From: Tildeniella nuda ZEHNDER 1965/U140 | GTDB taxonomy: Bacteria; Cyanobacteriota; Cyanobacteriia; Leptolyngbyales; Leptolyngbyaceae | Length of the DNA: 64,000 nt | Direction: 5' to 3' | Assembly: GCA_019358895.1 (NCBI GenBank) | Contig: JAHHIG010000012.1 | Location: 1-64,000 of the forward strand | Shown: in pieces, positions 1,552 to 55,649 of the stretch | How positions within the stretch are numbered: the stretch's first letter is position 1 | Layout of the letters: every line of letters begins with the position of its first letter | Position numbers and translations under genes: made by a program | The notes under the pieces: model-generated | Databases searched by the model: none | The model's input: only the letters and a program-made list of their open reading frames with translations | What the model was told of the DNA's origin: nothing

Positions 1552-3852
1552 CTACACGATCGTAATCGGTTTTGCTTGAGCGGATAGAGGCGTTGTGTGA
1601 CCGATGATGGCACTGTGTGCATAGCCAAGCGCACGAAGGGCAGTCAGACAACGATCGCTCTCCTCTACAGGAACGGAAGCTAGTAACCCACCTGACGTTT
1701 GCGGATCGAAGAGGAGTGGGAAATGGGGATGCGTGTTGACAGCAGATGCATTGGCGATCGCTTGAACAGCGTGAAGATTTTGAGGTTGTAGCGAACTGGT
1801 GATACCTTTTTCCACTGTTTCCAGAGCACCTTGAAGCAAAGGAATAGCGGCTAAATTTAGCGTTACGGCAACCTTAGAGGCTTGCACCATTTCCACCAGA
1901 TGCCCGATTAAGCCAAAACCTGTAACATCCGTACAGGCAGTGGCGTGATGCTCCAATAAACAGGTTGCCGCTTGCTGATTGGATTGCTGCATAGAGGCGA
2001 TCGCGTCATCCAGCCAGCGTCCTTTGGCTCGAAGCTGCATGTGGGCGGCAAAAAGTGTACCCGTGCCGATCGCCTTCGTTAAGAGCAACACCTGTCCCGG
2101 TTTCATGCCGCCTTTCCGAAGCAGGCGATCGGGCTGTGCCAACCCGTTACACGACAATCCAAACGCCAGTTCTGCGCCTTCGGTGGTGTGTCCGCCAATG
2201 AGCACTGCCTGCGCCTGATGCAGAACAGATATTGCGCCCGAAAGGAGCTGATAGAGAGTTTCTTCGACGTTTGCAGGCTGTGCGTAAGGAATCGTGGCGA
2301 TCGCCAGCGCACTCTGCGGTTGGGCACCCATCGCAAACAGATCGCTCAGGGCATGGTTCGCGCTAACCTGCCCAAAGACAAATGGGTCATTCAGCAGTGC
2401 CGGAAAGTAGTCAATGGTTTGCACCATCACCAAGCCTGCCGGGACTTGCACCACTGCCGCATCATCTGGAGCCTCCAAGCCGACGAGAATATCCGATCGC
2501 TCAGCAAGCCCTCCGCTTTCCTGCTGCACTCGCCGCAACACACGCGATAAAATGCTGCTGCCCACCTTCGCACCACACCCCGCACAGCGCATGGTTGGGA
2601 CGTTCTGATCCGGAACCTTAGACAGCAGGAAGGCATCAACTACACGCTCTAGCTGACCGCTGACGGCTGACGGCTGACCGCTCTCCTCCATCTGCGGCAA
2701 ATCACTAAACCGCTGCATAAACGCCCGATCGATCCGATCTTTCCAGCGCCACAACAATGGTGACTGCCAACCAAATGATCCACGCGCCGCGATCGCCTCA
2801 CCATTACCTGTACCAATCAAGCTGAGATATTGCGCCTGCGGTCGAAACGGTTTTAGGGACTGGTTTTGCAGCGATCGACGCAAATTGTCAACCAGGGGTT
2901 TTCCCTGACGCACCGCAAACACGCCTGCTTTTGGGCGAGGATGATTGAGCATCGTTGCGCTATCGCCAGCCGCGAAGATGTCGGGGTGAGACAGCGATCG
3001 CAGCGTATCATTTACCAAAACAAAGCCGTTTTCATCAACAGCTAAACCAGCCTTTGCCAGCCAGTCGGGAGCCGAAGCCTGCGTGACCCAAAAAATGTAG
3101 TCACACGCGATCGTTAGACCTGATGCACAGATAACGCGATGCGACTCTACTGAGCGAACAGGCTCCTGCAAATGAAGCTGAATGCCACGTTGCGTTAAAA
3201 GAGTCTGAAAGCGATCGCGCACCCAGTGGTTTTGGGTGGGTAACAAGGTCGCTTCTTTTTGAAAAAGATGCACAGTCAAATTGCTAAACGGCTGTTGCGC
3301 GGCGCTCAAAATTTGCTGAAGGCGATGTTGTATCGTGAGCGCCAGTTCCACACCACCTGCACCACCGCCCACAATGCTGATGGTCACAGCCTTCTCAGGT
3401 TTTTGCGAGAGGTCATCGACAACCTGATCCCAGCGCTCTAGAAATTGACGAATGGGTTTAGCTGGAATGAGCGCCTCCCGATCGCCAATGACATCAGGCA
3501 GTCTGGGCGCACTCCCAAGATTGATAGACAGCAAATCAAAGCCAACAGGCGGACGGTTGGCGCAAAGAATCTGCTTCTTCGCCAGATCTAAGCCGATCGC
3601 GCGATCGAGATAAAGCTGTGCGCCCGCAAATTGAGCCAATCGACGCAGATCAATATGGCACTCTTCTCGACTATAGAAACCCGCTACATGCCCCGGCAGC
3701 ATTCCCGAATAAGCGGTATCCGATGCTTCCGTCAGTAGTGTAATGCGGACTCCTGACATCGGTTTCATGCCAAACAGCCGCAGGGCGATCGCATGAGCAT
3801 GCCCACCACCCAGCAGCACTAAATCTCTGCCGATCGGCTGTGATTGGTTCAT
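1552..3852 (-). CDS. selD: NDH-like oxidoreductase fused to selenophosphate synthase
   Basis: A 766-residue fusion known from cyanobacteria. Residues about 1-385 are a pyridine-nucleotide-disulfide oxidoreductase resembling type 2 NADH dehydrogenase: an N-terminal FAD site (LVLLGGGHAHAIAL), a second dinucleotide site (SIVGGGAGGVELALTIQ) and a C-terminal FAD motif (DIFAAGDSATM). Residues from about 410 to the end are SelD, which makes selenophosphate from selenide and ATP. The active-site segment reads MRCAGCGAKVGSS, with cysteine rather than selenocysteine and the conserved lysine; GIGTGTLFAA- and DPQTSGG-type motifs follow. Start: the ATG at 3852 has GAGG seven bases upstream, while the ATG at 3858 is too close to it. 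The linker at about residues 388-400 is encoded by GCTGACGG-type heptamer repeats. Its expected user, SelU, is truncated nearby. Confidence 0.93.
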   Translation of the reverse strand: MNQSQPIGRDLVLLGGGHAHAIALRLFGMKPMSGVRITLLTEASDTAYSGMLPGHVAGFYSREECHIDLRRLAQFAGAQLYLDRAIGLDLAKKQILCANRPPVGFDLLSINLGSAPRLPDVIGDREALIPAKPIRQFLERWDQVVDDLSQKPEKAVTISIVGGGAGGVELALTIQHRLQQILSAAQQPFSNLTVHLFQKEATLLPTQNHWVRDRFQTLLTQRGIQLHLQEPVRSVESHRVICASGLTIACDYIFWVTQASAPDWLAKAGLAVDENGFVLVNDTLRSLSHPDIFAAGDSATMLNHPRPKAGVFAVRQGKPLVDNLRRSLQNQSLKPFRPQAQYLSLIGTGNGEAIAARGSFGWQSPLLWRWKDRIDRAFMQRFSDLPQMEESGQPSAVSGQLERVVDAFLLSKVPDQNVPTMRCAGCGAKVGSSILSRVLRRVQQESGGLAERSDILVGLEAPDDAAVVQVPAGLVMVQTIDYFPALLNDPFVFGQVSANHALSDLFAMGAQPQSALAIATIPYAQPANVEETLYQLLSGAISVLHQAQAVLIGGHTTEGAELAFGLSCNGLAQPDRLLRKGGMKPGQVLLLTKAIGTGTLFAAHMQLRAKGRWLDDAIASMQQSNQQAATCLLEHHATACTDVTGFGLIGHLVEMVQASKVAVTLNLAAIPLLQGALETVEKGITSSLQPQNLHAVQAIANASAVNTHPHFPLLFDPQTSGGLLASVPVEESDRCLTALRALGYAHSAIIGHTTPLSAQAKPITIV

Positions 3853-3932
3853 TGCCATAGCCTCATTGTAGAAGAGGGGAAAGCGGAAGGGGCGAAGGAG
3901 CAGAAGGAGCGAGGGAGGTTTTGAGTTAAATA

Positions 3933-4078
3933 ACGCGATGTGCAACTAATTCGCCCTCATCCCCACCCTTCTCCCCAGGGAGAAGGGCTTCCAGACCGTT
4001 CCGGTTCCTTCTCCCATCGGGAGAGGGCTAGGGTGAGGGCAGTTTTGGCAGGCATTGCAGGAAAGTCGCACATCGCGT
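3933..4078. mobile_element. 146-bp MITE-like element, copy 1
   Basis: Ends in perfect 11-bp inverted repeats, ACGCGATGTGC at 3933-3943 and GCACATCGCGT at 4068-4078. It is flanked by the 7-bp direct repeat TTAAATA (3926-3932 and 4079-4085), as expected from a target duplication. The interior has palindromic CTTCTCCC/GGGAGAAG and CTCTCCC/GGGAGAG segments. A second copy of identical length with only a few differences lies at 50134-50279. There is no coding capacity, so it would need a transposase supplied in trans. Confidence 0.85.
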
Positions 4079-8290: not shown

Positions 8291-10294
8291 ATGACCTATC
8301 AACCGCTCCATCACAAATACCGTCCGCAGAGTTTTGGTGATCTGGTCGGGCAGGAGGCGATCGCCACGACGCTCACGAACGCGCTTCAGCAGCAGCGGAT
8401 TGCGCCTGCGTATTTGTTCACAGGCGCACGAGGCACAGGCAAAACGTCGAGTGCGCGCATTCTAGCAAAATCGCTGAACTGTCTGAAGTCCGACGTGCCC
8501 ACCGCACAACCTTGTGGCGTGTGCGAAGTGTGTCAGTCGATCGCTAAAGGCTCAGCGTTAGATGTGATTGAAATTGACGCTGCCAGCAATACAGGTGTTG
8601 ACAACATTCGTGAGCTAATCGAGCGATCGCAGTTTGCACCTGTCCAATGTCGCTATAAGGTGTATGTGATCGATGAATGTCATATGCTCAGCACCGCCGC
8701 GTTTAATGCCTTGCTAAAAACGCTGGAGGAACCACCCGATCGCGTGGTGTTTGTGCTGGCAACCACCGATCCCCAACGGGTGCTACCAACCATTATTTCG
8801 CGTTGTCAGCGGTTTGACTTTCGGCGCATTCCCCTAGCGGCAAGTGCTAGCCATCTCCGCTCGATCGCAGACAAAGAAGCGATCGCGATTACCGACGATG
8901 CCATCACCCTGATCGCCCAAATTTCTCAAGGTGGGATGCGTGATGCCGAAAGCCTGCTGGATCAACTAAGTTTGCTGCCCAGTGAGGTCACGGTTGATAA
9001 AGTGTGGGATCTGGTGGGGTCAGTGCCAGAGCGCGATTTGATGAGTTTGCTAGAGGCGATCGCGCAAGACAGCCCCGAGACCCTACTCGATAGCGTCCGC
9101 CGACTGATGGATCGAGGACGCGAGCCGCTAATCGTGCTGCAAAACCTTGCCAGCTTCTACCGGGATTTGCTCATTGCCAAAACTGCTCCCGATCGTAATG
9201 ATCTCGTTGCACTCACTCCACCCACATGGGAAGCGCTCTGCCACTTCGCTCAAACGTTGACCTTGCAAACCATCCTGGCAGGGCAGCAGCAGCTTCGTAA
9301 AAGTGAAGATCAAATTAAAAGCACAACGCAACCGAGGTTGTGGTTAGAAGTGACGTTGATGGGGTTGTTGCCGTCGGCAGTCAGCGGTCAGTGGTCAGCG
9401 GTTAGCCCGACGAGAGCGGCTGATGTGGTAGTGCCTGCTAGTCCTCCTGTTGAAGCAGTGAAGCCTCTGCAAGCCGAGGCGATCGCTTCAGAAAACCCCG
9501 TGGAGCCAGCAGAAGCAGTGGCGATCGCAGAACTAGCCACTCGTACCGTAGAAGCAACTCCGTCTAACGTGGTGAACCAGCCAGCCAATAGCGCCAGCGG
9601 TAATCTCAGCCAAACCTGGCAGGAAATCTTGAGTCATATTGACCTACCAGGTACGCGCGGTATGTTGAGTGCGAATTGCTACTTACTCAACCAGAACGAC
9701 CATGAAATTCTGGTGGGCGTGAAGTCTCAAGGGATACTCAAAATGATCAACGGGATGCTGCCTCAGCTTGAAAAGGCTGCTGCTAAAGCGTTTAAGGCGA
9801 AGGTTAAAGTTGTCCTTCAAGTAGCGGAAACAATACCTCAAGCTGGTCAAATAGTGCAACAGCAAGAGACAACCGATCGCCTACCCTCGTCTGAAGGTGA
9901 TTCCAGCGATCGCACCGCACAAGCTGCTCCCCGTGATGCAGCGCCAGCATCAAGTGCTGATCAACCGATCGCGCCGATCGCTTCAAGCGACGCTCAAGCA
10001 GGTACAAATTCGCAAGCCCCCGCAGCACCGAAACAACTGTCCTCTAACCATGTCACAGAGTCGGCAGCGGATTACGCTACGCCTGATCAATGGCAGCAAG
10101 ACGACGACGTGACCCGCGCTTCCAAACAACTGGCTGACTTTTTTGGCGGCAAAGTGGTCGATATGAGCGACAGTGACACCGTAGCAGAAGCCCCTAAACT
10201 ATCCGAAATCGACTCAGCCAGTCTTCAAGAAAAAACAACAGCGTTACCGGAGACAGACTATGAACCAGAGTCAGATGATGACGTACCGTTTTAA
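8291..10294 (+). CDS. dnaX: DNA polymerase III subunits gamma and tau
   Basis: The clamp-loader ATPase of the replicative polymerase. The 667-residue protein opens with the family sequence YRPQSFGDLVGQEAI, Walker A GARGTGKT at 45-52, the zinc site C64/C75/C78/C81 (GVCEVC) and Walker B VIDECHMLS near 127-134. The arginine-finger/sensor region LATTDPQRVLPTIISRCQRF follows. Residues after about 375 are a low-complexity linker rich in Ala and Glu, then a folded tau-like segment (SGNLSQTWQEILSHIDLPG) and an acidic tail. Residues about 360-373 (AVSGQWSAVS) are encoded by the GTCAGCGG heptamer repeat. Some cyanobacterial dnaX genes carry inteins; none is present here. Confidence 0.95.
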   Translation: MTYQPLHHKYRPQSFGDLVGQEAIATTLTNALQQQRIAPAYLFTGARGTGKTSSARILAKSLNCLKSDVPTAQPCGVCEVCQSIAKGSALDVIEIDAASNTGVDNIRELIERSQFAPVQCRYKVYVIDECHMLSTAAFNALLKTLEEPPDRVVFVLATTDPQRVLPTIISRCQRFDFRRIPLAASASHLRSIADKEAIAITDDAITLIAQISQGGMRDAESLLDQLSLLPSEVTVDKVWDLVGSVPERDLMSLLEAIAQDSPETLLDSVRRLMDRGREPLIVLQNLASFYRDLLIAKTAPDRNDLVALTPPTWEALCHFAQTLTLQTILAGQQQLRKSEDQIKSTTQPRLWLEVTLMGLLPSAVSGQWSAVSPTRAADVVVPASPPVEAVKPLQAEAIASENPVEPAEAVAIAELATRTVEATPSNVVNQPANSASGNLSQTWQEILSHIDLPGTRGMLSANCYLLNQNDHEILVGVKSQGILKMINGMLPQLEKAAAKAFKAKVKVVLQVAETIPQAGQIVQQQETTDRLPSSEGDSSDRTAQAAPRDAAPASSADQPIAPIASSDAQAGTNSQAPAAPKQLSSNHVTESAADYATPDQWQQDDDVTRASKQLADFFGGKVVDMSDSDTVAEAPKLSEIDSASLQEKTTALPETDYEPESDDDVPF

Positions 10295-19155: not shown

Positions 19156-22100
19156 ATGGCAATTTTACACGGTAGCTGGTTCATTTACTCTCAGGCAGAG
19201 GCGGAAACGAGGCACGGTTCTGGTGAACACGCTGCCTCAGCTCAAGGCTACCTCTTTCTTTGGGGCGAGGTCTGGCGCAGAATCACACCTGAGATACCCT
19301 ACGCTGCTGGGTTGACTCATCTAGACATGACTCTGCAAACCCACCCCTTTGCAATGTCTCCCACGGAGTTGCAGGCGCTGTTGCGATCGCGACAGCAAAC
19401 CAATCACCTTCACCTTCCAGAATCGTTTTTACAACCGATCGCTGATCGATCCACTGCTACTGCCTCTAAAGCAAGACGATCGCGCTCCACTCAAGAAGCA
19501 GCGGTAGCGACACTTGCCACCACGATGTCTGGTCAATGGCAGACGCAGGTATTGGCAGTGCCATCCTATCTGGCAGAGGATGAACTGGAACTGCCGACGG
19601 GCGCGATCGTCCCGCAGCATTCTGCCGTGGTGGAGAATGCCACTGTCGACGATCGCGATCGCTTCCTTTATCCGTGGCGCGTCGAGGGGCTTTGTCTTGA
19701 CCCGATCGCCGCCATTACCTTTCTCAATTCCTTGCCGTTAGGCACCGTTGATGTGGATGACTCCTTTCTCAGTGGTGATCTGCGCTTTTGGTCTCATACT
19801 GCTCGCTGGAGTTTGGATTTGCTGGCGCGATCAAAGTTTTTGCCAGGGTTAGAGCGAGGAGAGCGAACTGCCTGGGCGCGTTGGCAACCGCTGTTGGATA
19901 GTGCCGTTGATCAGGTGCGATGGAAGCATTTTGTCGATCGAATGCCTGTTGCCTGTCGGTTGTATGAGCAGGAGGACGAAGGTAACGGGCAGGCAACCGC
20001 AGAGACGCAGAGACGCAGAGAGGAGGCAAATAACGCAAAAGCAGTCAAAACGCAAAGCTGCTCTCTCGCTCTCCCACTGCCTACGCCGCCCCAGGCTCTC
20101 CTCCAAGCTTTTCTCAGCAGCACTCTGGATGCTCAAATCAGGCTCTTGGCTCAGCAGCACTCGTTATCAGCTTCGGCAGAAAAAACAATGTCGGGTGCGG
20201 TGCGATCGTGGCTACAGGCATTAGGGCAAGAGGGGGCGATCGTACCTGTTGCTGAGAATGTGGCTGGGCTGGATGCTCTAGAGACCGCGCTGGCAAACTG
20301 GACGGCACCTTTGCAGCTTCAGGGCGTACAGCAAAATCTGTTTCGCACCTGTCTGTATTTGCATCCACCTCAAGTGGGTCAGCCTCGATCAGGTCAGAGT
20401 CAAGCAGGTCAGAATCAGTGGAGACTAGAATACTTCTTACAGTCAGCGGATGATGAGACGTTTTTGGTGAATGCACCCACGATTTGGGGCAACCCGGTGG
20501 AGCAATTGCATTACCAGGGTCGATCGATCGATCGTCCGCAGGAAACGCTGCTGATGGGTTTGGGGCTTGCGTCTCGCCTCTATGCGCCAATTGAACCGAG
20601 TTTGCAGGCACCACGTCCCCAGTTTTGTGCGCTCACGGCACTGCAAGCATACGAATTTATCAAAGCAACGGCGTGGCGCTTGCAGGATAGCGGGCTTGGT
20701 GTAGTGCTGCCGCCGAGTCTGGCAAATCAGGGCGGCTGGGCAAGTCGTTTGGGGCTAAAAATTCAGGCACAGTCGGCAAAGCTCAACAAAGGTCAGGTAC
20801 GGCTGGGCTTGCAAAGTCTGCTTAACTTTCGGTGGGAGTTATCGATTGGTGGGCAAAGCCTGTCTAAAGCGGAATTCGATCGCCTGGTTGCCCTCAACGC
20901 GCCCCTGGTTGAAATCAACGGCGAATGGGTCGAACTCCGTCCCCAAGACATTCGCGCTGCCCAAACCTTTTTCGCCAGCCGCAAAGACCAGACCGCCCTG
21001 TCTCTGGAGGATGCGCTGCGGATTAGTACCGGGGATACGCAGACGATCGAAAAGCTACCCGTAGTGAGCTTCGAGGCATCGGGTCCGTTGCAAGAACTGA
21101 TCACCACCCTCAGCGGCAATCGCCAGATTGAGGCATTACCCACACCCAAAAACTTTCGGGGCACACTGCGTCCCTACCAGTCACGAGGCGTTGGCTGGCT
21201 GGCATTCCTGGAACAATGGGGCTTGGGTGCCTGCCTTGCGGACGATATGGGCTTGGGCAAAACCATTCAGCTCCTCGCCTTTCTGCTGCACCTCAAAGAG
21301 CAGAAAACCTTGGAGCATCCCACACTGCTGGTTTGCCCAACGTCAGTACTCGGCAACTGGGAGCGTGAGGTCAAAAAATTTGCTCCCACGTTGATCGCTT
21401 TCTTGTATCACGGCGACAAGCGACCGCAAGGGAAAGCCTTTGCCAAAGCAGCACAGGGTAAGGATCTCATTATTACGAGCTACGCGCTGGTGCAGCGGGA
21501 TAGCAAAGATCTGCAAACGATCGTGTGGCAAGGTGTGGTGCTGGATGAAGCGCAAAACATCAAAAACCCCGATGCCAAACAATCACAGGCAGTCCGGGAG
21601 CTTGACGCGCAGTTTCGCATTGCGCTAACGGGCACCCCGGTCGAAAATCGCTTGTCTGAACTATGGTCAATTCTGGACTTCCTGAATCCAGGCTATCTGG
21701 GACCCAAAAACTTCTTCCAGCGGCGCTTTGCTACCCCGATCGAGCGCTATGGCGATACCGCCTCTCTGCAAACCCTTCGATCGCTCGTCCAGCCCTTCTT
21801 GCTCCGTCGCCTCAAGACCGATCGCGACATCATCCAAGATTTGCCTGATAAGCAAGAAATGACGGTTTTCTGCGGACTCTCGTCTGAACAAGCATCCCTT
21901 TACCAGCACACCGTCGATCGCTCCTTAGCTGAGATCGAAGCCGCCGAAGGCATTCAGCGCAAAGGCATCATTCTCGCGCTGCTGGTGAAGTTGAAGCAAA
22001 TCTGCAACCATCCAGCCCTCTTTTTGAAGGAAGAAGGCAGGGAAGGAAAGGATAAAGGCTCAAGGATCAAGGATAAAAGCAGTGACGGTGATTTAGCCTT

Positions 22101-22680
22101 TAGCCTTCATACTTCAGCCTTTCTCACCCGCTCTGGCAAGCTTCAGCGGCTTGAAGAAATGCTGGAAGAAGTGGTGGCAGAGGGCGATCGCGCGCTCATC
22201 TTTACCCAGTTTGCCGAATGGGGCAAGCTGTTGAAAGCGCATCTGGAGCGTCAGTTGGGACGAGAAACGTTGTTCCTTTACGGCAGCACGTCGAAGAAAC
22301 AGCGCGAGGAAATGGTCGATCGCTTCCAGCATGATCCTCAAGGACCTCGCATCTTTATTCTGTCGCTGAAAGCAGGTGGTGTAGGCTTAAACCTGACTCG
22401 TGCCAATCACGTCTTCCACTTCGATCGCTGGTGGAATCCCGCAGTGGAAAATCAGGCAACCGATCGCGTCTTTCGCATCGGGCAAACCAAGAATGTGCAA
22501 GTACACAAATTCGTCTGCAACGGCACATTGGAAGAGAAAGTCCATGAACTCATCGAAAGCAAAAAGGCACTGGCAGAAAACGTCATCGGTGCAGGCGAAA
22601 ACTGGCTCACTGAGTTGGACACCAATAGTTTGCGAGATTTGCTCTTGCTCGATCGCAGTGCCATCATTGGCGATGAATAA
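19156..22680 (+). CDS. SNF2/Rad54-family DEAD/DEAH helicase
   Basis: A 1174-residue SNF2-type ATPase like the cyanobacterial HepA/Rad54-related helicases. The first 650 residues are a family-specific N-terminal region (opening AILHGSWFIYSQ). The motor follows: RPYQSRGVGWLAFLEQWGLG, Walker A DDMGLGKTIQ near residue 697, Walker B DEAQNIKNP near 797 and ALTGTPVENRLSELW. Lobe 2 contains ALIFTQFAEWGKLLK, FILSLKAGGVGLNLTRANHV and ATDRVFRIGQTKNVQVHKF. Residues about 278-310 and 958-986 (EGREGKDKGSRIKDKSSDG) look like intergenic repeats read in frame; both sit at domain or loop boundaries. SNF2 proteins remodel or translocate on DNA; the target here is unknown. Confidence 0.92.
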   Translation: MAILHGSWFIYSQAEAETRHGSGEHAASAQGYLFLWGEVWRRITPEIPYAAGLTHLDMTLQTHPFAMSPTELQALLRSRQQTNHLHLPESFLQPIADRSTATASKARRSRSTQEAAVATLATTMSGQWQTQVLAVPSYLAEDELELPTGAIVPQHSAVVENATVDDRDRFLYPWRVEGLCLDPIAAITFLNSLPLGTVDVDDSFLSGDLRFWSHTARWSLDLLARSKFLPGLERGERTAWARWQPLLDSAVDQVRWKHFVDRMPVACRLYEQEDEGNGQATAETQRRREEANNAKAVKTQSCSLALPLPTPPQALLQAFLSSTLDAQIRLLAQQHSLSASAEKTMSGAVRSWLQALGQEGAIVPVAENVAGLDALETALANWTAPLQLQGVQQNLFRTCLYLHPPQVGQPRSGQSQAGQNQWRLEYFLQSADDETFLVNAPTIWGNPVEQLHYQGRSIDRPQETLLMGLGLASRLYAPIEPSLQAPRPQFCALTALQAYEFIKATAWRLQDSGLGVVLPPSLANQGGWASRLGLKIQAQSAKLNKGQVRLGLQSLLNFRWELSIGGQSLSKAEFDRLVALNAPLVEINGEWVELRPQDIRAAQTFFASRKDQTALSLEDALRISTGDTQTIEKLPVVSFEASGPLQELITTLSGNRQIEALPTPKNFRGTLRPYQSRGVGWLAFLEQWGLGACLADDMGLGKTIQLLAFLLHLKEQKTLEHPTLLVCPTSVLGNWEREVKKFAPTLIAFLYHGDKRPQGKAFAKAAQGKDLIITSYALVQRDSKDLQTIVWQGVVLDEAQNIKNPDAKQSQAVRELDAQFRIALTGTPVENRLSELWSILDFLNPGYLGPKNFFQRRFATPIERYGDTASLQTLRSLVQPFLLRRLKTDRDIIQDLPDKQEMTVFCGLSSEQASLYQHTVDRSLAEIEAAEGIQRKGIILALLVKLKQICNHPALFLKEEGREGKDKGSRIKDKSSDGDLAFSLHTSAFLTRSGKLQRLEEMLEEVVAEGDRALIFTQFAEWGKLLKAHLERQLGRETLFLYGSTSKKQREEMVDRFQHDPQGPRIFILSLKAGGVGLNLTRANHVFHFDRWWNPAVENQATDRVFRIGQTKNVQVHKFVCNGTLEEKVHELIESKKALAENVIGAGENWLTELDTNSLRDLLLLDRSAIIGDE

Positions 22681-23649: not shown

Positions 23650-26529
23650 CTATTTTCGCTGAAATGGTGCGATCGCGTCATTGCGATCGCCCTCCCTTCC
23701 TACACGATCGCCCTCTCCCACACCCCACACCCCATACCCCTCTTCTAACACCCTCAACACCCCCCGCGTCATCACATCATCCGACAGTTCATCCGATCGC
23801 TGCTCCTGAATGGCTTTTTGGAGGAGAGCGCGAAAGTTTTGTGTGCCTTCCTGCACCCAGGGATGATTGGCTTCCAGTTTTGTCAAAAAGATCGGGAGTG
23901 CTTGCAGATAAAGGCGTTCTGCCTCTCGATAGCGTCTTTGCTGATCGTAAACTCCTGCCAGATTGTGCAAAGACCTTGCAAGATGAGGATGATCGGCAGG
24001 AAGTTGTTTCTGCCTTATGGAAATGGCTTTTAGGAAAAATGATTCTGCTTCCGTGTAACGCTCTTGCAATCGGTAGAGCGCTGCCAAATTGTTCAAGCTC
24101 GTTGCCACACCGGGATGGTCATCGCCCAATTGACATTGTCGAATTGAGAGCGATCGCAGATAGAGCGGTTCCGCTTCCCTATACCGTCCTTGAGAATAGT
24201 ACAAGAAAGCCAAATTGTTTAGGCTCGATGTCACATAGAGATGGTCATCGCCCAACTGCCATTGCTGAATTTCCAGCGATCGTACATATAGCGGTTCCGC
24301 TTCCCCGTACCGTCCTTGAGAATTGTACAAGATTGCTAAGTCATTCAGGTTCCGTGCCACATCGAGATGGTTGTCGCCCAACTGCCGTTGCTGAATTTCC
24401 AGCGATCTCATAAACAGCGGTTCCGCTTCTCCATACCGTCCTTGAGAACTGTACAAGACTGCCAAGTCATTCAGGTTCTGTGCCACGTCAAGATGGTCGT
24501 CGCCCAACTGCCGTTGCTGAATTTCCAGCGACCTCATAAACAGCGGTTCGGCTTCCCCATACCGTCCTTGGAAGTAGTACAAGTGAGCTAAATTATTCAG
24601 GCTCGTTGCCACATCGGGATGGTCATCGCCCAACTGCCGTTGTCGAATTAAGAGCGATCGCGCAAACAGCGGCTCTGCTTCTGCATAGCGTCCTTTAGCT
24701 TGGTAAAGTGTTGCCAAACCATTGAGGCTGGTTGCCACGTCGAGATGATCGTTGCCCAACTGTTGTTCCCGAATCGAGAGCGATCGGACATAGAGCGGTT
24801 CTGCTTCTACATAGCGCCCTTGACCGTGATAGAGGCTTGCTGTCCAATGTAGACATGTTGCTAAATCAAGTGCTTGCTCTGGTCTGGCTAACCGTTCCAT
24901 CGCCGCTTGCAAATGGGAAATCATGATGGTCGATTCCTTGGTCAGCGATCGCTCCGGCTTCTCCTGAACTCTTTCCGCCTCAGCAATCACCCCCTCATAA
25001 AACCTCTGCTGCAATGCCGAGTCATCTGCTCGTTGCGATCGCTTCGCCGCAAAAAATTCCCGCAGCAGTTGATGCAGTTGGTACATCCCCTGATCCACGC
25101 GCTTCAGCAGATGGGTGCCCAATAGCTGCTCATCGCGGATTTCCTCCAGCTCCTCCGCATCCAGGGTTGGCAAACACTGTTCTACCAGCGTCCAGGGGAT
25201 TTCTACCAGGGCAAACAGGCTCAACACGGCGGCGACTTGCTGCGCGGACTCGTCCAATGCCTGCCAGCTCAACTCAAATGCAGCGGCTACTCCCAACGAT
25301 GCGGTCATACCCGGTTCGGCTTGCTTAAAGGCGATCGCGTCCAGGCGTTTGTCTTGCAACCGTTGCCACAAGACGGCGAGGGAAAGATCGGGCTTGCGGG
25401 CTAAATACCGTCCCACTAGCTCCACTCCCAACGGCAAATAGCCCAACCACTCACAAAGCTGCCGTTCTAGATCCCCGACTTCTTGAAGAAGTCGGGGATC
25501 TGTGGTGTCTCTACCCTGGCTGACGATCGCTCTCAACAATTCCAGCGCTTTTGCCTCCGACAGCACCTCCAGTTGTATATCCTGCACGGGCGAACCAAAG
25601 TGCGATCGCGTCGTGAGCAATACCTTAAAGCGCGAGTCTTGCGGTGGCAGAAACGGTGCAATATCGTCGTACTCCTGCACATCATCAAAAATAAGTAATG
25701 CGGCTCCTTCGCGCCACCGTCTCCAGCACCACCGCACTTTTTCGATTAATTCCAGGTCGTCTGGGGGAATTAATTCCAGGCACGATCGCACGAAGCTAAT
25801 AATTTGCGTGCCTACGTCTTCCCGTGCCCGTATCCAGCAGAGTCCACCAGGATAATCACTCTCGCGGCAGTGTTGGCGGGCGTACTGCAACGCGAGTTCG
25901 GTCTTGCCAATGCCGCCCATCCCGGAGATTGCCGAAATGGCAACGGTTGAACCCCGCTGCAACTGCTCATGAATCTGCGCGAGTTCCGTCTCTCGCCCGA
26001 CAAAGTTCGTGCTGCCGTAGGGGAGGTTCTGTAGGATACTCGGCGGATAGATCGGTTTGGTATGAGGTGTAGAGTCTGGATAAATTGGTTTCTGAGTCGG
26101 CTTACCGCGCTCTTTCTTGACGGCTTTTTTTGCCTCTTGCCGCACCAGTTCTGTGGCGATGTCCTCCGGCTTGCCCACCAGATCGACATACAAAATCTGC
26201 GCCCACAGTCCCTGGGGGGTACAGTCTGCTACCCGAATGGGGATAAGCCGTCGTGCCTTCCCCGTGGCATCTTTTGCAAAGGCGGCTGCCCATTCTGCCT
26301 GCACAAACCCCGATCGCAACGAATGGTTCGATAAAACGGCGATCGTCCGTTCTGCTTCGGCGGCTGCCGTTTGCATCTCTAGTACAAAGTTTCCCCCTGC
26401 GCCAAAATCCCACGCCTGAATGATGGTGGTATAGCCCTCACTTTCCAGTATCCAGGCAATCCATTCGGCGAAGGCGCGATCGTTTTGGTTGTAGCTGACA
26501 AAAAAATCCGTCTTCGCTTTAGCGTCCAT
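23650..26529 (-). CDS. TIR / NB-ARC / TPR STAND protein
   Basis: A 959-residue multidomain signalling NTPase. Residues about 6-135 form a TIR-like domain (DFFVSYNQNDRAFAEWIAWI; the likely catalytic Glu is E79 in GFVQAEWAAAF). Residues about 165-520 are NB-ARC: NFVGRETELAQIHEQL, P-loop SGMGGIGKTELA (202-213), Walker B LLIFDDVQ, and the winged-helix region CEWLGYLPLGVELVG. Residues about 565-900 hold eight 42-residue kinesin-light-chain-type TPRs (LYxxQGRYxEAEPL, LGDDHxDVA). Known bacterial TIR-STAND proteins sense phage and deplete NAD; that role is inferred here. The ATG at 26529 is chosen over 26556 because the added residues lie outside the TIR domain. The gene is collinear with xisH-xisI. 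Confidence 0.88.
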   Translation of the reverse strand: MDAKAKTDFFVSYNQNDRAFAEWIAWILESEGYTTIIQAWDFGAGGNFVLEMQTAAAEAERTIAVLSNHSLRSGFVQAEWAAAFAKDATGKARRLIPIRVADCTPQGLWAQILYVDLVGKPEDIATELVRQEAKKAVKKERGKPTQKPIYPDSTPHTKPIYPPSILQNLPYGSTNFVGRETELAQIHEQLQRGSTVAISAISGMGGIGKTELALQYARQHCRESDYPGGLCWIRAREDVGTQIISFVRSCLELIPPDDLELIEKVRWCWRRWREGAALLIFDDVQEYDDIAPFLPPQDSRFKVLLTTRSHFGSPVQDIQLEVLSEAKALELLRAIVSQGRDTTDPRLLQEVGDLERQLCEWLGYLPLGVELVGRYLARKPDLSLAVLWQRLQDKRLDAIAFKQAEPGMTASLGVAAAFELSWQALDESAQQVAAVLSLFALVEIPWTLVEQCLPTLDAEELEEIRDEQLLGTHLLKRVDQGMYQLHQLLREFFAAKRSQRADDSALQQRFYEGVIAEAERVQEKPERSLTKESTIMISHLQAAMERLARPEQALDLATCLHWTASLYHGQGRYVEAEPLYVRSLSIREQQLGNDHLDVATSLNGLATLYQAKGRYAEAEPLFARSLLIRQRQLGDDHPDVATSLNNLAHLYYFQGRYGEAEPLFMRSLEIQQRQLGDDHLDVAQNLNDLAVLYSSQGRYGEAEPLFMRSLEIQQRQLGDNHLDVARNLNDLAILYNSQGRYGEAEPLYVRSLEIQQWQLGDDHLYVTSSLNNLAFLYYSQGRYREAEPLYLRSLSIRQCQLGDDHPGVATSLNNLAALYRLQERYTEAESFFLKAISIRQKQLPADHPHLARSLHNLAGVYDQQRRYREAERLYLQALPIFLTKLEANHPWVQEGTQNFRALLQKAIQEQRSDELSDDVMTRGVLRVLEEGYGVWGVGEGDRVGREGDRNDAIAPFQRK

Positions 26530-26626
26530 AGGGGCAACTCGGAGACAGCGCTGCATTTTTTCTACCTCAGCATTCTAGCTTTCTCCGCAAAGTGTCAGAG
26601 TTTCTCCAGAAAGGATGAAGATTCTG

Positions 26627-26913: not shown

Positions 26914-27220
26914 GTTCCGATTTCGACTCGCATCGTTTCGGTTTGGAAGTGAATCATTGCTGTTGCAAGCGCGATCGCTCCTGTTTGAAGTGAGCACGTT
27001 CCTATCTGAAATGCGTTCGCGCAGCACTCCAGCGGAATCGTTCCTACTTGAAACACGATCGTTCCGATTTGAAGTGAGAACGTTCCGATTTGAAGTAAGA
27101 ACGTTCCGGTTTGAAGTAAGAACGTTCCGATTTGAAGTGAGAACGTTCCTGTTTGAAGTGAGAACGTTCCGGTTCAAAGCGAGAACGATCGCGGTTGAGA
27201 TAAGGAGATTCTCGTTTTGA
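26914..27220. repeat. 21-bp tandem repeat array (minisatellite)
   Basis: About fourteen or fifteen consecutive 21-base units of consensus GTTCCGATTTGAAGTGAGAAC, with unit starts at 26914, 26935, 26956, 26977, 26998, 27019, 27040, 27061 and every 21 bases to 27187. The units from 27061 to 27165 are nearly identical; outer units are eroded. Because 21 is seven codons, frames stay open on both strands (for example a repeated FRFEVRT on plus and NRNVLTS on minus). Unit ends joined together create AACGTT palindromes. It lies between the two TIR genes, upstream of one and downstream of the other. Confidence 0.85.
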
Positions 27221-40672: not shown

Positions 40673-42616
40673 TCACCCTTTCCGTGAAGCTCTGGTTTTT
40701 GTGGCTTTCGGCTTTGCTTCAGCAGCGGGCTTTGGTTCCGTAATAAGCTTTGGTTCGCCCGATCGCATCTCCCGCAAATTCGCGGCTTGTTTCAAAAGCG
40801 AGTCAGCGAAGGCATAGGCAACGTCATCGATCGCGCCGCTGGCTTCAGAGGTTGACTGACCGCCTGCAAGCTGTGCCAGTTCTTCCCGTCGTTGTTGACT
40901 GTCGAGGGTTGTGACACGAACGACGGTACGGACGGCATTGGGGGAGTGGGGAGTGGGAAGAGTGTTTGAAGGTTTGAGGTTTGAGGTTTGAGCCTCCGTA
41001 TCTTCCCCTGCTCCCTCTGCTCCCCCATCCCCCTCATCCCCCATCCCCCCACCTCCATTCCCCGCCTCAATCACCTGCTTGCTCACGCGCAAGTGCTGAT
41101 CTGCCATCGCAGCCACGATCGGCTGGTGGGTGACACAGAGCACTTGATGATGTTGGCTAAGCTGATGGAGTTTTTCGGCGATCGCCTGTGTGACTCGTCC
41201 CGAAACGCCCACGTCGATCTCGTCAAACACCAGAGTACCAACGGGATCGATCTGGGAAAAGCTGGCTTGTAAGGCGAGTAGAAAACGGCTCATTTCGCCA
41301 CCGGAGGCAATTTCGGTCAGCGGTTGCAGCGGTTCACCCGGATTGGGGCTAAAAAGAAAGGTGACGCGATCGGCTCCCAGCGCAGATGGAGAAGCTGGCG
41401 AAATACCGACCTGAAATTTCACCTTTTCCATTGCCAGTGGTTTGAGTTCGTTCACCAGTCGCTCTTCCAAATCCTTGGCTGTTGCTTGTCGGAGTTGAGT
41501 GAGTGCAGCACAGGCTTCGGTCAACGCAAGCTGCCGTTCCTGATAGGTACGTTCCAAATCTTCTAGAGATTGACCGCCGCCTGTGAGTTCGTCCATGTCA
41601 GCCTGGAGGCGCTGGTAAAGAGCGATCGCGTCTCCCAACGTGGGACCATACTTGCGGCAAAGTTGCTTCAGTTCAACGATGCGTTCCTGCACTTCCTGAA
41701 GGCGCTGCGGGTCAGATTCCAGCGTTTCGCCATAGACGTTGATTTCGCGTCCGGCTTGCTCTACTTGCGCCAGAGCAGTGCTGACGAGTTCAAGAATCGG
41801 CTGAAGCTGCGTGTCATATTCAGCCATCGCCGTCAGTGTCGTTTCGGCTTTGCCCAACAGGTCGGCGCACGCTTCAGTACCGTCATCATTCTGATAGAGA
41901 GCCTGATACACCTGATAGCTCTGGTGCTGAAGCTCAACGCTGTGCCCGAGGCGCTTGCGTTCTTGCTCCAACTGATCCAATTCATCAGGTTCAGTGAGAT
42001 TGGCAGCGCTCAATTCTTTAAGCTGATACTCAAACAGGTCAAGCTGCTGGAGGCGTTCTTGTTCCGATTTGCGGCGCTTTTCTAATGCCTGTAGCGCTTG
42101 TTGATAGGCAGAGAAAGCTGTAGCAACGAGCGATCGCTGCTGTAACAACGTCTCACCACCGTAACTATCGAGCCATTCGCGCTGGAGAGGCGGTTGCCCA
42201 ATCTGCACGGTTTGTCCCTGCGCTGTGAGTTCTACCAGCCGATCGCGCAGTTGCTCCATTTGCTGCTTGTTGACCAACGTACCATTGATGCGCGATCGGC
42301 TTCGCTGGCTGCTTTGACTGGCGATAATCTCGCGGCTACAGATCAGTTGAGCGTCGTCAGACGGTTGAATTTCGTGCTGTTCCAGCAAGGATACGAGGTC
42401 AGGCTCTAGCCGAAAGACTGCCTCTACAACAGCGCGATCGGCTCCTGTACGAACCGCACGACTGGTCACTTTGCCCCCTAAAACGGCATCGATCGCGTCG
42501 AGGATAATCGACTTACCTGCGCCCGTTTCGCCTGTCAGCACAGTCAGTCCTGTACTTAAATCTAGCTCTAAGTAGTCTACCAGGGCGAAATTTTCGATTC
42601 GCAGGGAAAGCAGCAT
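40673..42616 (-). CDS. recN: DNA repair protein RecN
   Basis: An SMC-like ATPase that tethers DNA ends during double-strand break repair. The 647-residue protein has Walker A TGETGAGKSIILDAI (28-42), two coiled-coil arms from about 150-390 (Gln/Glu/Leu-rich, for example RLQEVQERIVELKQL), the RecN signature SGGEMSRFLLALQ near 440 and Walker B LVFDEIDVGVSGR near 465. QVLCVTHQPIVAAMADQHL follows. Residues about 517-560 (GGGGMGDEGDGGAEGAGEDT and onward) are an insert encoded by gap-type G-rich and TTGAGGTTTGAGG repeats, between the last strands of the head domain. Confidence 0.94.
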   Translation of the reverse strand: MLLSLRIENFALVDYLELDLSTGLTVLTGETGAGKSIILDAIDAVLGGKVTSRAVRTGADRAVVEAVFRLEPDLVSLLEQHEIQPSDDAQLICSREIIASQSSQRSRSRINGTLVNKQQMEQLRDRLVELTAQGQTVQIGQPPLQREWLDSYGGETLLQQRSLVATAFSAYQQALQALEKRRKSEQERLQQLDLFEYQLKELSAANLTEPDELDQLEQERKRLGHSVELQHQSYQVYQALYQNDDGTEACADLLGKAETTLTAMAEYDTQLQPILELVSTALAQVEQAGREINVYGETLESDPQRLQEVQERIVELKQLCRKYGPTLGDAIALYQRLQADMDELTGGGQSLEDLERTYQERQLALTEACAALTQLRQATAKDLEERLVNELKPLAMEKVKFQVGISPASPSALGADRVTFLFSPNPGEPLQPLTEIASGGEMSRFLLALQASFSQIDPVGTLVFDEIDVGVSGRVTQAIAEKLHQLSQHHQVLCVTHQPIVAAMADQHLRVSKQVIEAGNGGGGMGDEGDGGAEGAGEDTEAQTSNLKPSNTLPTPHSPNAVRTVVRVTTLDSQQRREELAQLAGGQSTSEASGAIDDVAYAFADSLLKQAANLREMRSGEPKLITEPKPAAEAKPKATKTRASRKG

Positions 42617-51080: not shown

Positions 51081-51248
<168 letters not shown>

Positions 51249-52148: not shown

Positions 52149-54220
<2,072 letters not shown>

Positions 54221-55370: not shown

Positions 55371-55649
55371 CTATCAGCTATTAGCTATCAGCTATCAGCT
55401 ATCAGCTATCAGCTATCAGCTATCAGCTATTAGCTATCAGCTATCAGCTATCAGCTTTTAATTTACTCTCTGGCAAGTAAGTTATAGCTTGAGAAGCCGC
55501 TGACCGCTGACCGCTGACCGCCGACCGCTGACCGCTGACTGCTGACCACTGACCGCTAACTGCTGACCGCTGACCGCTAACTGCTGACCGCTGACCGCTG
55601 ACCGCTGACCACTGACCGCTGACCGCCGACCGCTGACCGCTGACCGCCA
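55371..55649. repeat. Compound heptamer repeat, copy 2 (inverted)
   Basis: TATCAGCTAT units (55371-55458), then the core TTTACTCTCTGGCAAGTAAG with TATAGCTTGAGAAGCC (55462-55499), then about twenty GCTGACC/GCCGACC/GCTAACT units to 55649. It is the reverse of the array at 51082-51248, with the core differing at one or two bases. It lies between the MOSC gene and the 55686 gene. Confidence 0.85.

Follow-up and report, generated by a model that had tools for sequence, protein, structure and literature searches.

The window examined here, a stretch of 64,000 nucleotides from Tildeniella nuda, raises the question of how tandem repeats with a unit of seven bases, of a type seen between genes, come to be read in frame inside genes. 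A preliminary description had pointed to such repeats in selD, dnaX, an SNF2-family gene and recN, at apparent linkers or loops, and had remarked that seven bases per unit would normally shift the frame. We followed these sites through the T. nuda genome and through its relatives.

In-frame repeats in the window

All four genes carry arrays detected by Tandem Repeats Finder, and all of these arrays lie within open frames. The features are listed by window position, with copy numbers from Tandem Repeats Finder.

1552-3945, minus strand: NDH-SelD fusion gene (selD)
2652-2682, minus strand: selD array, 4.4 copies of GCTGACC (91%), read as AGCGGTC/AGCCGTC in the gene; peptide SGQPSAVSGQ
8291-10294, plus strand: dnaX gene
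9380-9406, plus strand: dnaX array, 3.9 copies of GTCAGCG (85%)
19156-22680, plus strand: SNF2-family gene
19998-20021, plus strand: first SNF2 site, 3 copies of CGCAGAGA
20369-20417, plus strand: 15-bp tandem repeat in the SNF2 gene
22048-22074, plus strand: second SNF2 site, AAGGATC/AAGGATA, 3.9 copies of AAGGATC; peptide KDKGSRIKDK
40931-41065, minus strand: recN linker (residues 518-562), made of (CTCAAAC)n, a C-rich heptamer-like tract and ACTCCCC-like sequence
40964-40992, in the recN linker: array of 4 copies of GTTTGAG
41021-41049, in the recN linker: array of 3.9 copies of TCCCCCA
51081-51141, plus strand: intergenic AGCGGTC array, of the family seen in selD and dnaX
52278-52418, plus strand: intergenic mixed GCTGACC/GATAGCT array
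55497-55647, plus strand: intergenic CCGCTGA array, the AGCGGTC family on the other strand

The selD and dnaX arrays belong to one AGCGGTC unit family, as had been proposed, and the AGCGGTC strand is the sense strand in both, selD being on the minus strand. Arrays of this family also lie between genes in the window, and a 23-base pattern of the family has 955 matches in the 6.08-Mb genome, spread over the genome and on both strands, compared to 15 for the reversed control; the in-gene segments are of the intergenic repeat type. The term “essential genes” used for the four carriers is only partly apt, as neither selD nor the SNF2 gene is usually regarded as essential, yet arrays are found elsewhere in the genome in the genes for GyrA, TopA, PurH and ClpC. 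Two tandem repeats with longer units also occur in the window, one of 126 bp with about six copies at 24083-24823, within a minus-strand gene (23650-26556), and one of 21 bp, CGTTCCGATTTGAAGTGAGAA, with about six copies at 27039-27187, between two genes.

The placement of the repeats at linkers or loops is borne out, for the proteins examined, by domain boundaries, solved structures and a RecN model with a disordered segment. The selD array sits between two enzyme domains, with solved-structure matches that stop at residue 390 and restart at residue 451. The dnaX peptide, AVSGQWSAVS, follows directly after domain III, where the Pfam match ends at residue 359. The second SNF2 site lies between the Pfam domains SNF2-rel_dom (to residue 954) and Helicase_C (from residue 995). 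The first SNF2 site is built of an 8-mer rather than a heptamer and encodes AETQRRRE in a linker whose length differs between species in a seven-species alignment. The 15-bp repeat in the same gene gives a separate, frame-neutral insert of 10 residues that is missing in all six of the aligned same-genus relatives.

The match of RecN to the solved structure 4ad8 ends at residue 517, and a further stretch, itself below significance (-0.9 bits), begins at residue 563, leaving 45 residues in place of 1. A structure model of RecN calculated from 43 sequences (mean pLDDT, 81.7) has pLDDT values of <50 at residues 520-558, between strands at residues 507-516 and 563-570, and so puts the recN array in a predicted disordered hairpin turn.

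Arrays in genes across the T. nuda genome

Heptamer arrays were counted in 1.264 Mb of T. nuda sequence, including the window and amounting to about one-fifth of the genome. There are 158 period-7 arrays with a score of at least 14, compared to 0 to 16 at periods 4 to 6, 8 to 13 and 15; the 98 arrays at period 14 are a harmonic of period 7. Gene calling relied on codon pairs, with the arrays masked, and gave 1,115 genes and 83% coding sequence. With the score set at 12 or more, 192 arrays are found, of which 112 lie between genes, 31 at the edge of a gene and 49 within 29 of the 1,115 genes. Array density is 0.047/kb in coding and 0.519/kb in non-coding DNA, so that arrays are scarcer in genes, by about 11-fold, yet by no means missing there. 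The corresponding density ratios in samples of about 0.4 Mb each are 3.3 for Leptolyngbya sp. FACHB-321 (here G002), 17.8 for Lyngbya sp. HA4199-MV5 (G005) and 9.7 for Stenomitos frigidus ULC18 (G001). G002 has few heptamer arrays (13 in 400 kb), yet 7 of the 13 are in genes, as if in-gene copies outlast intergenic ones, although the numbers are small.

The in-gene arrays are clustered, the 49 arrays occupying 29 genes compared to 47.0 under random placement, and neighboring in-gene pairs of differing families within 100 bp of each other number 7, compared to 0.3 at random. One WD40-repeat gene (G000:C11:346544-351124) has seven heptamer arrays, five of them inside the WD40 region.

Conserved sequence flanks an array on both sides in 22 of the 29 genes by a hand count based on Pfam, NCBIfam, solved structures and orthologs, with the gene at C24:399961 counted from its ortholog alone and AcrB from a split Pfam match. 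Counted by array, again by hand, 34 of the 49 have conserved sequence on both sides. The 22 include GyrA, TopA, PurH, ClpC, RecN, the NDH-SelD fusion, HisZ, NagA, LarC and MoeA; a MalK-type ABC ATPase, an oligopeptide-type double ABC ATPase, a HerA-type helicase and an aspartate-oxidase-like flavoprotein; and AcrB, an ArsP-type permease and several WD40, TPR and nSTAND proteins. Outside the count are RsgA, an M48 peptidase, a PMT_2 protein, a DUF1574 protein, cytochrome oxidase subunit III, an NrtD-type ATPase and PurS; some of the arrays not counted may lie upstream of the true gene start. In PurH, 29 residues separate the two enzyme domains, compared to 7 in structure 3zzm, and in the MalK-type ATPase about 65 residues are inserted within the nucleotide-binding domain after residue 142. 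The arrays of TopA and ClpC are in loops that are shorter in solved relatives.

Since 7 is prime to 3, a heptamer tract gives the same seven-residue peptide in any frame, and for five units that we tested the three frames are indeed rotations of one peptide. It follows that only orientation and net length matter. Of the frame-shift puzzle raised for these sites, one half remains, namely that the net added length must be a multiple of three, and the other half falls away because the phase of the array is irrelevant. The proposed check of insert lengths for multiples of three showed no such constraint on the visible tracts: among 81 in-gene tracts, the length leaves a remainder of 0, 1 or 2 in 27, 28 and 26 cases. 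The rule of three thus applies to the net insertion and not to the length of the tract.

Orientation matters through stop codons. About 69% of all heptamers are stop-free on a given strand; AGCGGTC is open, and on the complementary strand a TGA recurs at 21-base intervals. Across four genomes the sense strand is without a stop in 80 of 81 in-gene arrays, a result imposed in part by the gene caller, since it requires an open frame. At 3' gene edges, 13 of 26 arrays are closed in sense. Twelve T. nuda arrays are closed on both strands, and all of them are intergenic (0 of 49 in-gene arrays versus 12 of 112; P = 0.019). The in-gene arrays have a median length of 31 nt and peak at four units (33 of 81), and intergenic arrays peak at three (75 of 196) in the same four genomes. 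The median perfect run is 26 nt in genes versus 21 nt outside (P = 1.5e-4); these longer in-gene runs are not predicted by the simple view that slippage is harmful in genes.

The same linkers in relatives

The linkers were compared with those of the same-genus relatives G001 to G006, whose orthologs are 69 to 89% identical, with uneven coverage of genes (selD was not found in G001 and G002, nor dnaX in G004). As the preliminary description had led us to look for, the linkers differ in length between relatives, other heptamer families are often present in frame, and the aligned relatives keep the reading frame. Repeat-free linkers of the same length and composition are not what the relatives have, the exception being G003, in which no period-7 tract with a score of at least 7 occurs at any of five linkers. 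By hand count, 14 of 32 sequences over the five linkers have a period-7 score of at least 12.

The SelD linker, aligned across five species, has the units AGCCGTC, GGGGAGT, AGCGGTC and AGGCAGA, the last with two units only. G001 and G005 have heptamer arrays at the linker that corresponds to the first SNF2 site. At the second SNF2 linker the peptide is nearly identical in T. nuda, G001 and G002 and is therefore inherited; the units in G004, G005 and G006 differ. Peptides of unrelated sequence stand at one linker in different species, for example SAVSGQ, EWGVGS, RQKAE, TQNSKLK and PTPHSP. RecN has a period-7 array in six of seven genomes, with the units CTCAAAC, CACACCC, ACTCAAA (twice), AGGAGCA and AGGCAGG.

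Beyond the genus, a full alignment of RecN covered 77 of 79 loci (76 cyanobacterial and one from Alkalihalobacillus), the other two being truncated. In 60 of the 77 the site has at most 25 residues (QVIE to RTV inclusive) and no array; a period-7 score of at least 12 occurs in 6 of the 77, and other periods give 0 or 1. Several long cyanobacterial RecN linkers (loci L242, L237, L239, L235 and L305) are without a heptamer array, so arrays are not the sole source of long linkers. The dnaX linker has a score of at least 12 in 4 of 22 anchorable relatives (24 loci), which are G027, G017, G018 and G034. The dnaX matches are split at about residues 126 to 148 in G005, G009, G016, G020 and G033, within open frames of 850 to 1,138 residues. 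This split is as would be expected for a putative DnaX intein; dnaX of T. nuda has no such split.

Recurrence is also seen gene by gene. For five of the eight T. nuda array genes that have an ortholog in the compared stretches, the ortholog also has an array with a score of at least 12, compared to 23 of 981 of the relatives' genes overall (binomial P = 4e-7); the gene at C24:399961, ClpC and TopA are the three without one. PurH has one family in T. nuda and in the ortholog and may be a case of inheritance, and the families of the MalK-type gene overlap partly with those of its ortholog. We also compared interior indels in 229 ortholog pairs with at least 70% identity. Among 83 indels of at least 3 gap columns, 9 fall at a period-7 array (score of at least 9), compared to 1.5 at random and 0 to 3 for other periods; most indels thus have another origin. 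Among 17 indels of at least 10 gap columns, 5 are at heptamer arrays, compared to 0.9 at random (6 of 20,000 simulations as high) and 0 to 2 for other periods.

The family at a linker was then set against the pool of its genome by whole-genome counts of three-unit patterns for four families, AGCNGTC, AACTCAA, AGGCAGR and GGGGAGT. AGCNGTC has 718 matches in T. nuda, 238 in G001, 2 in G004 and 0 in G003. AACTCAA has 4 in T. nuda and 176 in G004, with a reversed control that is uninformative because its counts are nearly equal to those of the pattern. AGGCAGR has 215 in T. nuda, 316 in G005 and 3 in G004, and GGGGAGT has 140 in T. nuda and 13 in G002. G003 is the poorest genome in the four patterns. 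Thirteen linker arrays, hand-picked and excluding arrays of uncounted families, match the family shares of their own genome better than shuffled assignments do (P = 0.0013), and 8 of the 13 are of the top family of the four in their genome (P = 0.023). Also outside the 13 are a second recN array of G005 and a 12-nt AGCCGTC remnant in dnaX of G003, which has a pool count of 0 and counts against pool matching; with both of these added, P is 0.0040. Some of the 13 may share descent, and with one array per family and linker (n = 9) P is 0.0056; with only scores of at least 12 (n = 9) it is 0.0066. An earlier, weaker test based on the census alone found the family of 59 of 81 in-gene arrays also outside genes in the same species, compared to a shuffle mean of 52.8, with 48 of 2,000 shuffles equally high.

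Origin of the in-gene arrays and known systems

The explanation that we favor, and consider very probable, is that cyanobacterial short tandemly repeated repetitive (STRR) heptamers spread through the genome and are tolerated in disordered protein linkers. Heptamer tracts would multiply, disperse and at times land in or grow in genes, where a tract would survive at a flexible linker, a turn or a joint between domains, provided that the sense strand is without a stop and that the net added length is a multiple of three. As families come and go, one linker would acquire differing repeat peptides in different species, with mosaic growth possible. Most in-gene copies would be neutral passengers, and dispersal would probably proceed through tract copying by slippage and template switching or gene conversion, not through a transposon.

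The best of the alternatives, though an unlikely one, is that each linker array grew where it now stands, starting from a seed that arose by chance and was extended by replication slippage, with no dispersal of units. MacGregor 2015 (PMC4679880) cites a proposal that heptanucleotide repeats favor polymerase slippage, and the mosaic linkers do resemble repeated local growth. However, one unit is present at very many loci (the 955 pattern matches of a single family), and the linker family tracks the species pool (P = 0.0013, with variants at 0.004 to 0.007), which is unexpected from chance seeds.

We give a lower probability still to selection of the repeat peptides as flexible spacers or contact sites, with the DNA repeat secondary. 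Several species do have arrays at one and the same linker, and in-gene arrays are relatively common in G002, but the peptides at one linker are of unrelated composition between species and most RecN loci manage with a short site. Inside in-gene arrays, 27 mismatches affect codon position 1, 36 position 2 and 38 position 3 (chi-square P = 0.36), and this spread gives no sign of selection on the repeat peptide. The unrelated peptides and the flat distribution together favor tolerance over selection.

Slightly less probable again is insertion of the tracts by a specialized mobile element that supplies its own enzyme, a possibility to which the dispersal on both strands genome-wide would lend itself; MacGregor 2015 (PMC4679880) raises mobility for TAACTGA repeats. 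At 35 AGCNGTC-type arrays outside genes no fixed terminal sequences were found; the commonest shared 8-mers occur at only 4 or 5 of the 35 and are parts of a few longer repeats. These 35 main-family arrays have mostly unrelated flanks, which makes a transposon with fixed ends improbable.

Codon shuffles of each gene, compared by best period-7 score, served as the test of chance. That the sites are ordinary low-complexity linkers, repetitive-looking through chance or composition, is scarcely credible: although the scores of dnaX and the SNF2 gene alone are reached in 17 and 13 of 1,000 shuffles, those of selD and recN are matched in 0 of 1,000 each, a period of 7 nt is not a multiple of three, and period 7 stands out genome-wide from the other periods. 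With 17 shuffles reaching its score of 8, the dnaX site is weak on periodicity alone. It is firmer by unit family, three AGCNGTC units with at most three mismatches being found in 1 of 300 shuffles; G001 and G002 have arrays of an AGCGGTC-type unit, of 29 nt and 78 nt, at the same place in dnaX.

If heptamers are indeed dispersed and tolerated in linkers, a repeat class regarded as “intergenic” becomes a visible force on protein evolution, and it can be seen how a 7-bp repeat persists in genes such as gyrA, topA and recN. Annotators and structure modelers should be cautious with such linkers, which are repeat DNA and not conserved features. With sister species differing in family at a single site, a comparison of near-identical strains would offer a way to observe dispersal. 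A bolder version, which we put forward tentatively and hold to be doubtful, is that an active transposase-free process writes heptamer tracts from the pool into permissive sites, existing arrays first, so that linkers of core proteins grow and are rewritten species by species. Heptamer writing would then be a main source of large indels in these cyanobacterial proteins, and the heptamer period would suit tract writing, since the peptide is independent of frame.

STRR heptamers have long been known from filamentous cyanobacteria, and Elhai is said to have worked on small repeats in 2008. The arrays described here share with STRRs the 7-bp head-to-tail units and the many dispersed, mostly intergenic copies (955 matches; 112 of 192 arrays intergenic), and the genera of the host's relatives, Stenomitos, Leptolyngbya and Lyngbya, are filamentous, as are STRR hosts. 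The arrays described here differ in that they occupy a large number of protein genes, are read in frame, and stand at corresponding linkers with differing families in relatives. Three STRR heptanucleotides have been reported from Calothrix PCC 7601 (PMC4692102), and an STRR is reported to lie within the RNase P RNA gene (Vioque 1997).

Our search of the open-licence literature found no report of in-frame heptamers in cyanobacterial protein linkers, the nearest being MacGregor 2015 (PMC4679880), which describes TAACTGA direct repeats in Beggiatoaceae, cyanobacteria and Bacteroidetes. One orientation of TAACTGA gives stops and the reverse is open as the seven-residue peptide LSVISYQ; reverse repeats occur in 11 open reading frames, one of which encodes an RNA polymerase beta'-like protein with the repeat placed at a loop on the surface. 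The likeness to our arrays is in the heptamer unit with one stop-bearing and one open orientation. The TAACTGA repeats consist of one unit, mostly at protein ends or in hypothetical proteins, whereas the arrays here are internal, in core enzymes and of several units, and the comparison of species supports both their recurrence and their agreement with the genome pool.

G-rich GGGNATC heptamers of Xanthomonas and Nostoc have been studied as G-quadruplexes near gene ends (PMC4692102). They too form heptamer arrays that are under-represented in coding regions, in a cyanobacterium among others, but the available portion of that paper describes no in-frame use in linkers. The Rickettsia palindromic elements are the classic in-frame inserts in unrelated protein genes, thought to be compatible with the fold (Ogata 2000, 2002, as presented in PMC10969869). 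Presence in frame in unrelated protein genes is likewise seen here (22 of 29 genes). The Rickettsia elements are palindromes of about 150 bp with a conserved peptide; our arrays are direct tandem 7-mers, their reading is independent of frame, and their peptides differ between species. In phase-variable contingency loci a change in unit number switches the gene on and off within a population; the relatives aligned here all retain the frame. The repeat class and the principle are known. As far as our searches tell, the novelty is that core proteins use such repeats recurrently and interchangeably, and it lies in the scale, in the core genes affected, in the way that families replace one another at homologous linkers and in how they follow the pool of each genome.
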